Below, piece after piece: positions 7,633 to 51,458 of a DNA stretch of 64,000 bases. Made by a program: the position numbers and the translations under genes. The notes under the pieces are model-generated. The model saw nothing but the letters and a program-made list of their open reading frames with translations. It did not search any database and was not told where the DNA came from. Source of the stretch: SAR92 clade bacterium H231 (GTDB taxonomy: Bacteria; Pseudomonadota; Gammaproteobacteria; Pseudomonadales; Porticoccaceae). The stretch lies in NCBI GenBank assembly GCA_025153775.1, contig JAOALC010000001.1, positions 248,001 through 312,000 on the forward strand, read 5' to 3'. Numbering within the stretch: the first letter of the stretch is position 1; every line of letters starts with the position of its first letter.

Positions 7633-7674
7633 CTGGATGGTCCGACTGTTGAGGGAGACCAGAATAGTAAATCT

Positions 7675-8385
7675 AGAGGGACTGATTGTAAAAGCCATAG
7701 GGCTTTTACAACTCCTGCGGAGCGCCCAGGCGAGCTGGGCGTCCAAACTCTGCCGCAGGATAGTTTGTCGAACAGGGCTCTCGTCCGGCAGTCCAATCTA
7801 CCAATATTAAAAAAGGCCACTTCTTGCGAATTGCTTGTTTGATGTTGGTGGAGCATTTAGAGGGACTGATTGTAAAAGCCACAGGGCTTTTACAACTCCT
7901 GCGGAGCGCCCAGGCGAGCTGGGCGTCCAAACTCTGCCGCAGGCATAGTTTGTCGAACAGGGCTCTCGTCCGGCAGTCCAATCTACCAATATTAAAAAAG
8001 GCCACTTCTTGCGAATTGCTTGTTTGATGTTGGTGGAGCATTTAGAGGGACTGATTGTAAAAGCCACAGGGCTTTTACAACTCCTGCGGAGCGCCCAGGC
8101 GAGCTGGGCGTCCAAACTCTGCCGCAGGCATAGTTTGTCGAACAGGGCTCTCGTCCGGCAGTCCAATCTACCAATATTAAAAAAGGCCACTTCTTGCGAA
8201 TTGCTTGTTTGATGTTGGTGGAGCATTTAGAGGGACTGATTGTAAAAGCCACAGGGCTTTTACAACTCCTGCGGAGCGCCCAGGCGAGCTGGGCGTCCAA
8301 ACTCTGCCGCAGGCATAGTTTGTCGAACAGGGCTCTCGTCCGGCAGTCCAATCTACCAATATTAAAAAAGGCCACTTCTTGCGAA
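7675..8385 (-). repeat. Four tandem ~185-bp units downstream of tRNA-Asp
   Basis: Units begin (plus-strand reading) at 7675, 7859, 8044 and 8229; spacings are 184, 185 and 185 bp, and the last, tRNA-proximal unit is incomplete (about 157 bp). By eye the units are almost identical; the first differs by a missing C and an A-for-C change. On the tRNA-sense (minus) strand each unit holds several hairpins: CAAACT...AGTTTG, CGCCCAGCTCGCCTGGGCG and TTGTAAAAGCC...GGCTTTTACAA. Each full unit also carries a segment ending GCTCCACCA that resembles a tRNA 3' end, then half of the terminator found next to tRNA-Asp. Open frames through the array are by-products of its near-multiple-of-three period and have no separate coding support. 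Confidence 0.95.
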
Positions 8386-8405
8386 GTAGCCTTTTTTAAT
8401 ATTGG
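8356..8405 (-). terminator. Palindromic terminator directly joined to tRNA-Asp
   Basis: A 50-bp inverted repeat with arms CCAATATTAAAAAAGGC and GCCTTTTTTAATATTGG on the minus strand. The left arm begins with the CCA of tRNA-Asp itself, so the hairpin starts at the tRNA 3' end. The T-run within the right arm makes it a terminator. Only the tRNA-proximal repeat unit has both arms; the other units keep just the right arm. Confidence 0.85.
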
Positions 8406-8479
8406 CGGACCGGACGGGACTCGAACCCGCGACCTCCGGCGTGACAGGCCGGCATTCTAACCAGCTGAACTACCGGTCC
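8403..8479 (-). tRNA. tRNA-Asp (anticodon GTC)
   Basis: Full cloverleaf on the minus strand with 7-bp acceptor GGACCGG/CCGGTCC, G at the discriminator position and an encoded CCA. The anticodon loop CTGTCAC gives GTC. It follows tRNA-Val by 17 bp, so the two form one transcript. The discriminator G is the expected identity element for tRNA-Asp. Confidence 0.97.
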
Positions 8480-50385: not shown

Positions 50386-50644
50386 TCTTTAGATACCCTT
50401 TGCTGTTACCTATAAGAGTCGCCGACCCTATTAGATTGTTGCACCATTTCTGACACCTTAGCAGTGCGAACTACTGAAACCAAGGATTTTGAGTACGTCT
50501 TTTTGTGATTGACGAATTGTAGAGGTGGATGCCGATATTGCTATAGATACAATTAAACTGATCGCAGCGATATCTTCATGGTGTGACGGAAGCTGTGGCA
50601 TATTGGAGCTGAGGGTTGTTTATTTTTAGAACCAATCGTCCAGG

Positions 50645-50690
50645 AGACGCAAATAAAAAACCCCCAGCCTGGGGCTGAGGGTTGTTTATT
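50645..50690 (-). terminator. Terminator in the distal tRNA-Arg repeat unit
   Basis: On the minus strand the stem AACCCTCAGCCCCAGG / CCTGGGGGTT-like pairing (CCCCAG/CTGGGG core) is followed by TTTTTT. It is the third copy of the tRNA-Arg terminator. Its A/T-run on both sides could make it work in both directions. Confidence 0.75.
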
Positions 50691-50815
50691 TGGTGCACCC
50701 GGAGGGATTGATTCTTTCCGCTCTGCGGAAATAACCCTGCGGGCTGCGTCGCGTTGCTCCTTGTCCAAAATGCATCCGCATTTTGTCGAACAGGGGTTAG
50801 AACCAATCGTCCAGG

Positions 50816-50861
50816 AGACGCAAATAAAAAACCCCCAGCCTGGGGCTGAGGGTTGTTTATT
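50816..50861 (-). terminator. Terminator in the middle tRNA-Arg repeat unit
   Basis: Same CCCCAG/CTGGGG hairpin with T-run as in the other units, 171 bp from each neighbour. Confidence 0.75.
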
Positions 50862-50986
50862 TGGTGCACCCGGAGGGATTGATTCTTTCCGCTCTGCGGA
50901 AATAACCCTGCGGGCTGCGTCGCGTTGCTCCTTGTCCAAAATGCATCCGCATTTTGTCGAACAGGGGTTAGAACCAATCGTCCAGG

Positions 50987-51032
50987 AGACGCAAATAAAA
51001 AACCCCCAGCCTGGGGCTGAGGGTTGTTTATT
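50987..51032 (-). terminator. Terminator of tRNA-Arg
   Basis: First copy of the hairpin (CCCCAG/CTGGGG core followed by TTTTTT), starting about 13 nt after the tRNA CCA. If it is efficient, the downstream repeat units are mostly silent; if leaky, they are transcribed as part of the tRNA precursor. Confidence 0.8.
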
Positions 51033-51109
51033 TGGTGCACCCGGAGGGATTCGAACCCCCGACCAAGTGGTTCGAAGCCACCTACTCTATCCAGCTGAGC
51101 TACGGGTGC
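51033..51109 (-). tRNA. tRNA-Arg (anticodon TCG)
   Basis: Cloverleaf on the minus strand: acceptor GCACCCG/CGGGTGC, discriminator A and encoded CCA. The anticodon loop CTTCGAA gives TCG. A -10-like TACAAT lies at 51122-51127; no good -35 is seen, and the promoter would overlap the 3' end of fdxA. Its last 19 nt are duplicated in the repeat array that follows. Confidence 0.96.
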
Positions 51110-51134
51110 GGTGTATGATGCATTGTAGCCTAAT

Positions 51135-51458
51135 TTAGCGTTCCAGGTATTGCAGTTTGTTGGGTACACCATCCCATTCTGCGGCATCTGGTGGTGGCTC
51201 TTTCTGTGTGGTGATATTGGGCCATATATCGGCGAGCTCGGCGTTTAGCTCTAAGAAGACTTCTTGACCTTCTGGGATTTCATCTTCGGCAAAAATAGCA
51301 TCCACTGGGCACTCTGGCTCACAGAGGGCGCAGTCAATGCACTCATCTGGGTGAATCACTAAGAAGTTAGGGCCTTCATAAAAACAGTCTACAGGGCACA
51401 CTTCAACACAGTCGGTGTGTTTGCACTTGATGCAGTTGTCGCCAACAATAAAGGTCAT
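51135..51458 (-). CDS. fdxA: 7Fe ferredoxin (FdxA)
   Basis: A 107-residue ferredoxin. The first Cys set, [18 protein letters not shown], has the spacing of a 3Fe-4S site with an extra Cys; the second, [16 protein letters not shown], is a 4Fe-4S motif. A C-terminal extension of about 50 residues is typical of the Azotobacter FdI/FdxA group. It is an electron carrier of uncertain partner. Together with mutS upstream it forms a pairing often conserved in Pseudomonas-like bacteria. Confidence 0.96.

Follow-up and report, generated by a model that had tools for sequence, protein, structure and literature searches.

Directly behind the tRNA-Arg(TCG) gene in a 64,000-nt stretch of the genome of SAR92 clade bacterium H231 (contig JAOALC010000001.1, 248,001–312,000; the whole stretch is hereafter the window, and positions are counted from its first letter), there is a tandem array of 171-bp units. 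We identify it as an array of tRNA-linked repeats (TLRs) of the kind represented by Rfam RtT, whose function is unexplained in E. coli. A TLR unit is probably, though far from certainly, a copy of a tRNA gene with a hairpin cassette interrupting one of its loops, multiplied by recombination. For the TLR family, the analysis adds a common core, presence in a quarter of the sampled genomes of the class Gammaproteobacteria, and many types of host tRNA.

The tRNA-Arg gene lies on the minus strand, hence the units run from 51032 downwards (Table 1). The array has a period of 171 bp (Tandem Repeats Finder score 852). At a shift of 171, the window is identical to itself over 50626–50880, i.e., 255 nt with zero mismatches, and at a shift of 342, over 50626–50709 (84 nt). 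This confirms the 171-bp spacing and the two identical units noticed in an earlier sequence-only reading of this DNA, and the copy identity fits recent amplification or concerted evolution, in line with the amplification or gene conversion suggested there. The 19-nt tail AATCCCTCCGGGTGCACCA (minus strand) occurs inside the tRNA at 51033–51051 and again, matching at 19 of 19 nt and including CCA, at 50862–50880 and 50691–50709. A terminator in each unit, an incomplete third unit, and a further remnant, all described in the same reading, were recovered as well. Between 50400 and 51250, there are 15 partly overlapping terminator-like sites on both strands, compared with a shuffle mean of 1.1, and a 171-nt stretch of the array folds better than 200 of 200 shuffles (z −4.5).

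Table 1. Coordinates of the two arrays and of their host genes in the window
Feature	Position	Strand	Basis
Intact host gene tRNA-Arg(TCG)	51033-51109	minus	ARAGORN; Rfam tRNA 67 bits (51036-51109)
Copied segment: 19-nt tRNA tail, T-loop AATCC to CCA	51033-51051	minus	19-nt tail-copy search
Unit 1, 171 bp: terminator, inverted tRNA segment, core, tail copy	50862-51032	minus	Repeat comparison
Terminator-like hairpin 1, adjoining the tRNA 3' end	51001-51025	minus	Hairpin scan
"Anti-tail" of unit 1: inverted imperfect copy of the tRNA 3' part	50964-50992	minus	By eye and folds
Core of unit 1: GTTCGAC - hairpins - CCCGCAGGG - hairpin - GAATCAATCC	50876-50962	minus	Core pattern; model R1, 29.9 bits, E 1.7e-5
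Tail copy 1, 19/19 nt	50862-50880	minus	Tail-copy search
Unit 2, identical to unit 1	50691-50861	minus	Self-comparison
Terminator-like hairpin 2	50830-50854	minus	Hairpin scan
Core of unit 2	50705-50791	minus	Core pattern and model R1
Tail copy 2, 19/19 nt	50691-50709	minus	Tail-copy search
Unit 3, incomplete: terminator-like hairpin (50683-50659) and inverted segment, without core	50626-50690	minus	Hairpin scan, self-comparison
Remnant of a further terminator arm, 22 nt; other three copies 95% identical	50604-50625	minus	Repeat family D2
tRNA-Asp(GTC), host of the second array	8403-8479	minus	ARAGORN
Second array, 185-bp units × 3.9: GTTCGAC ... CTCCGCAGGAG ... CAGTCCC	7674-8385	minus	Assigned by eye

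A 203-aa open frame runs through the array (50576–51187, minus strand), and another minus-strand frame and one plus-strand frame are also open. The 203-aa frame repeats because 171 is divisible by 3, and it is probably a by-product and not a gene.

The cassette common to the family reads GTTCGA/C-hairpin-G.AC-hairpin-CCCGNAGGG-hairpin-GAATA/ATCC, with slashes at its borders. The window contains two matches to this core pattern (none in 100 shuffles), and its unit follows the pattern exactly except for one C inserted in GAATCAATCC. The Rfam model RtT (RF00391, cut-off 45 bits) finds the tRNA-Tyr unit of the same genome at 65 bits, yet yields no match to the window array (locus L007) up to E 5. 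For this reason we built a covariance model, R1, from 39 tail-type units of named foreign records only, with the core GTTCGAC - hairpins - CCCGNAGGG - hairpin - GAATAATCC. R1 matches both tRNA-Arg units of the window (29.9 bits, E 1.7e-5), E. coli rtT itself (51.2 bits, L084), and, at E ≤0.05, 5 of 22 same-genus loci at this tRNA-Arg (L008, L009, L011, L013, and L015). The stems of the 39 foreign cores covary, with a score of 0.393 vs. 0.115 after shuffling and no more than 0.064 when the partners are slid. Of the four helices, two are completely or almost completely determined by the search pattern and hence uninformative, and the alignment that was scored also supplied the structure. Compensatory changes, proposed as a check in the sequence-only reading, are therefore present in the foreign cores. 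That reading had also compared the array with the tyrT operon of E. coli and its rtT RNA, and the same succession of inverted segment, core, and tail copy is indeed found here at another tRNA. Its description of the spacer as unrelated has to be dropped, as the spacer carries the rtT core motifs and is matched by R1. Nor is the likeness new as a phenomenon, since TLR tails are already known at several tRNA and rRNA genes (PMC8144298).

In public genomes, the core pattern yielded at least 132 matches, spread over 118 stretches of genomes and one of viral origin. Among the matches listed, 100 of 132 have a tRNA or tmRNA gene on the same strand at most 900 bp upstream; these hosts are Ser (29), Arg (25), Tyr (23), Gln (13), Glu (5), Asp (2), Lys (1), tmRNA (1), and Thr (1). 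Of the 71 distinct matches in 66 loci read with their flanks, 53 have a tRNA upstream. A shorter pattern was found in 92 of 370 genomes of the class sample, our genome included (reversed control, 2 of 370), and in 39 of 299 genomes of the phylum sample (reversed control, 0), while 10 of 50 genomes of the genus, again with our own, gave matches; some matches of these three scans resemble coding sequence by eye. Relatives of the unit, which the earlier reading had proposed to look for, thus exist in many genomes. Core matches behind tRNAs are also present in the Zetaproteobacteria records L141 and L152. Among complete E. coli genomes, 4679 of 5426 have an rtT match, in 1–9 places each (median 2), and 747 have none.

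A trivial explanation, chance tandem duplication of the tRNA flank, fits the exact copies; it is nevertheless extremely improbable, being refuted by the occurrence of the same core, with host-specific tails, in 92 of 370 class genomes vs. 2 of 370 for the reversed control. A core match behind tRNA-Thr was also seen in the viral contig IMGVR_UViG_3300050821_022867 (L215).

The tails are those of the respective host genes. The exact 19-nt tail of the gene upstream was found in 63 of 98 testable units, with a single mismatch in 7 more, for a count that leaves out L117 and L171, where the tRNA is cut by the contig end. The search pattern fixes AATCC, so that 14 of the 19 nt constitute free evidence. 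Exact own tails were found for the hosts Ser, Tyr, Arg, Gln, Glu, and Asp. Over 96 units, the per-position match before CCA is 0.79–0.99 for the own tRNA vs. 0.16–0.65 for tRNAs of other types. The spacer behind CCA also resembles that of the own host (0.49–0.68 vs. 0.26–0.39 for other types in the same 96 units), hence the flank has been duplicated too. The inverted segment tends to be tied to the own tRNA more weakly than the tail, judging by sequence matches: its longest antisense match exceeds that of every other-type tRNA in 46 of 99 units (mean 9.3 vs. 6.6). The duplex energy of the anti-tail with the own tail is −16.5 vs. −12.7 on average, and the own tail beats all other-type tails in only 30 of 99 units, for which reason a clean RNA helix formed by the anti-tail was rejected as a rule.

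Further tail-type units are present in the same genome. A blast search with the array yielded matches also at tmRNA, tRNA-Ala, and other genes. R1 identified 8 places in the whole genome at E ≤1, of which 7 are located at tRNA or tmRNA genes (tRNA-Tyr, 1; tRNA-Ala, 2; tmRNA, 2; tRNA-Arg, 2) and one is a displaced copy with the tmRNA tail, 15 kb from tmRNA. Tails are exact or nearly so at tRNA-Tyr, tmRNA, and tRNA-Leu(CAA), the latter having a single unit with one mismatch, and are decayed at tRNA-Ala and tRNA-Asp. Tandem repeats with a period of at least 60 within 1.2 kb were observed for 12 of 39 tRNA/tmRNA rows, corresponding to nine loci, as the tRNA-Val(GAC) locus is counted three times and the tRNA-Asp array twice. 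The Tandem Repeats Finder listing of the window has two arrays with a period above 60, at tRNA-Arg and directly behind tRNA-Asp(GTC), the second with a score of 1410. By eye, the 185-bp unit of the tRNA-Asp array consists of a terminator, inverted segment, GTTCGAC, hairpins, CTCCGCAGGAG, a hairpin, and CAGTCCC; 16–19 nt of tail are retained in 3 of 7 relatives having a unit of this type (L305, L307, and L308).

The tmRNA gene is followed by two units of 175 bp, each closed by the tail of tmRNA itself; another copy (79%) lies 14.7 kb away, so that tail units flank a 14.7-kb gene stretch at both ends (L085, 1656–16740). The open reading frames (ORFs) scanned in this stretch are metabolic, transport, TonB-receptor, or regulatory genes; none of these 8 is an integrase, the other ORFs there lying outside the scan. 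Such an arrangement, together with a phage-type integrase located directly behind the same tRNA-Arg in a relative (L019; Pfam Phage_integrase, 4.6e-18; DUF6538), would suit units that are left-over attachment sites of integrases aimed at the tRNA 3' end. We consider this origin very unlikely, because the tails are spaced at 171–185 bp around a conserved hairpin core with no island, the 8 ORFs scanned near tmRNA include no integrase, and the head-type units considered below are incompatible with attachment sites in the tail. Between the tail copies of the window there are only 171 bp, with no integrase or island. In the genus relatives L017, L018, L026, and L027, inspection by eye placed a phage-type integrase gene directly behind tRNA-Arg where the array would stand.

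Some genomes contain mirror forms, in which the head of a tRNA is repeated upstream of the gene; part of them have the same cassette in the D-loop. In our genome, upstream tandem arrays were found at tRNA-Ser(GCT), Ser(GGA), Leu(TAA), Val(GAC), and Ala(GGC), the last copy ending inside the tRNA at nt 21, 22, 25, 60, and 12, respectively; these arrays (L074/L290, L081, L072, L082, and L071) combine 12–60 nt of the tRNA 5' end with hairpin-rich spacers. Among the 10 best-matching genus relatives with the tRNA-Ser(GCT) gene called, 20–22 nt of the 5' end are exact in 6 and 13 nt in a seventh; in those 6, identity upstream of the copy extends for just 1–10 nt in five and for 48 nt in one. At loci of other genomes, 11 of 263 tRNA genes are accompanied by a head copy that was not itself called as a tRNA; these loci had been picked because they carry tail-type cores, and the 11 may include features of another kind. 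R1, although trained on tail-type units, matches 4 of the 8 D-loop loci examined at E from 2.3e-7 to 0.0024, namely, L153 (37.7 bits), L211 (37.4), L106 (33.4), and L186 (21.9). In these four, the tRNA is left at the D-loop GGCTGA (GGTTGA in L211), the cassette extends from an initial C to a final GAATA (GTAGTA in L186), after which the tRNA sequence continues from A. The borders in tail-type units, GTTCGA/C and GAATA/ATCC, match these. L098 and L210 resemble tRNA copies with a cassette in the T-loop.

These observations can be accommodated as follows. A copy of tRNA-Arg would have been interrupted in the T-loop by the hairpin cassette, and the unit would be what was left of it. With the cassette between the two T-loop halves, the 3' side would keep only the part from AATCC to CCA. 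Either the head or the tail piece of a broken copy could persist beside the intact gene, the intact upstream gene keeping the cell alive. Identical tails and flanks would subsequently allow units to be gained and lost, and keep them uniform, through unequal crossing-over or gene conversion. A transcript reading past the first terminator would yield a folded unit ending in the 3' processing signal of the tRNA and might be trimmed like a tRNA. The inverted segment could have arisen by fold-back copying.

Several observations weigh against this origin. Firstly, the public-genome pattern demanded GTTCGAC and AATCC, so that the search itself partly dictates the T-loop position seen in tail-type units, and the independent cases for a loop position are the D-loop ones only. 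R1 gave no match up to E 0.5 to the head units L157, L290, L293, and L081, the last three from our own genus, and reached just 14.5 bits (E 0.19) at the tRNA-Val units of our genome. Secondly, simple insertion does not account for the inverted segment, whose extent varies between species; matches of at least 10 nt to the own tRNA are antisense in 37 of 99 units, and the direct-sense control gives as many as 15 of 99. Thirdly, some arrays deviate from the scheme. The tail copy at tRNA-Ala is poor (6 mismatches), and at tRNA-Asp the acceptor part has decayed, the best 19-nt copy having 8 mismatches. The tRNA-Asp array is matched neither by the core pattern nor by R1, which leaves its layout as the sole sign of kinship. 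Behind tRNA-Met (L049, 62–467 from the tRNA start), there is a 113-bp tail array of 3.6 copies without the GTTCGAC core. Finally, no transposase or recombinase turned up, none having been searched for, and the covarying stems could equally reflect a selected RNA. A second array was observed upstream of the same tRNA-Met gene, ending about 14 nt before it.

Insertion into a tRNA copy leaves the nature of the cassette to be considered. Tentatively, it may be a mobile element that targets the loops of tRNA genes, in a copy beside the intact gene. Such an element would enter after GA and before A, giving GTTCGA/C...GAATA/ATCC in the T-loop or GGCTGA/C...GAATA/A in the D-loop. If so, the downstream tail-type TLRs and the upstream head-type units would be two faces of one element, which possibly moved as folded single-stranded DNA. 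The suggested origin would open two questions to testing, namely, what copies the ends of tRNAs and whether the RNA has any activity. It also cautions against taking every partial tRNA match next to a tRNA gene for the scar of an integrase. Inspection by eye led us to set aside integron attC sites and retroelement primer sites.

It is unlikely, in our estimate, that the units are maintained as a functional small RNA, i.e., a read-through transcript, 3'-trimmed like tRNA, that binds, e.g., CsrA/RsmA or Hfq. The strong covariation in foreign cores is what such an RNA would show, and the loops are strand-specific, with C(GNA)G triloops in 79 of 262 hairpins vs. a single TNC triloop. Moreover, CA(N)GGA recurs in the third hairpin of 29 of 130 distinct cores while the stems vary. 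CA(N)GGA is a CsrA-like motif, and ACA(R)GGATGT resembles CsrA-binding sites. Of the 130 distinct cores, 26 have at least two hairpins with GGA at the loop, in a count that includes the CCCGNAGGG hairpin of the pattern itself. Several GGA-loop hairpins, some of them with ACA(R)GGATGT, were seen in L098, L105, L153, L167, L174, and other loci. RtT is also among the RNAs detected by RNA-seq in Pectobacterium (PMC4710047). Against this stand the window unit itself, which lies behind a strong terminator-like hairpin and lacks a CA(N)GGA loop, and the 747 of 5426 E. coli genomes without an rtT match. By eye, hairpin 1 of the window unit has a GGAT loop (AAAATGC-GGAT-GCATTTT), there is no GGA in its other loops, and none of the loops is of the CA(N)GGA type that distinguishes RrA, RrB, and RrF. 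According to the accessible text of one study, the 19 TLRs located in tRNA operons received scores under 0.01 for CsrA binding, and the starvation phenotype of rtT was retracted (PMC8144298).

Wobble pairs also speak against a selected RNA: mismatches in core stems number 10 G-U and 9 A-C over 1152 pairs, compared with 52 and 2 in the acceptor and T-stems of the positional control (139 tRNAs of the same records). The test is weak, however, as terminators, which are RNA hairpins, have merely 21 G-U and 12 A-C over 821 pairs. Hairpin 1, found in 81 of 130 cores, has 2 G-U and 3 A-C; an earlier wobble count of 13:16 includes chance stem extension. The sense strand folds better than the antisense in 115 of 130 cores with RNA parameters and in 125 of 130 with DNA parameters, and since it does so with both sets, folding energy does not separate selection on RNA from selection on DNA.

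The absence of G-U bias in core stems would instead suit a DNA hairpin element, in which single-stranded sense hairpins are maintained, whether as the site of a single-strand recombinase or as an element acting in replication or supercoiling. The C(GNA)G loop should be extra-stable in DNA. With the pattern hairpin masked, it occurs in 79 of 262 core hairpins vs. 0 of 114 terminator-like hairpins, whereas UNCG loops are found in 0 of 262 and 7 of 114, respectively. We nevertheless hold this explanation to be rather doubtful. No enzyme was identified, GNRA loops are as infrequent in core hairpins as in terminator-like ones (8/262 and 3/114), the loop preference could reflect protein binding to RNA, and the mismatch counts are small. 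A purely DNA-based view is further at odds with CA(N)GGA in hairpin 3 of 29 of 130 cores and with the binding of CsrA and Hfq by RrA, RrB, and RrF units (PMC8144298).

The window array shares with the known TLRs the identity of its 3' end with that of the host gene (19/19 nt, twice), the location directly downstream on the same strand (from 51032), and tandem copies (171 bp × 2.5); it differs in organism, which is not E. coli, and in its host, tRNA-Arg(TCG). The TLRs of E. coli K-12 are reportedly to be credited to Egan and Landy in 1978 and to Rudd in 1999. In that strain there are 22 TLRs at ten loci, behind several tRNA and rRNA genes, with one to five per locus and 18–19 bp equal to the 3' end of the host RNA, and no function is known (PMC8144298). 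The accessible portion of that source does not mention upstream head-type units, which the window genome adds; our literature search was not aimed at them. The arrangement of RrA, RrB, and RrF behind E. coli 5S rRNA, i.e., terminator, unit, tail copy, and terminator, as in the rrB unit with a terminator on either side (PMC8144298), resembles that in the window, whereas the window hairpins are, by eye, not of the CA(N)GGA type. RtT is located at tyrT and other tRNA operons, with members by Asn and Lys tRNAs in Actinobacillus (PMC4986893). The window units share its core motifs, inverted segment, and tail copy but derive the tail and the inverted segment from tRNA-Arg and contain a strong terminator-like hairpin inside each unit. 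Several members of a leader cluster containing bacterial interspersed mosaic elements (BIMEs) are described as resembling rtT (PMC2965389); compared by description, repetitive extragenic palindromes and BIMEs are likewise short palindromes, whereas the window units occur tied to tRNA genes and include the tail of their host gene. Relative to the accessible text of PMC8144298 and PMC4986893, the common core, its spread, tmRNA as a host, and the head-type mirror appear to be additions.
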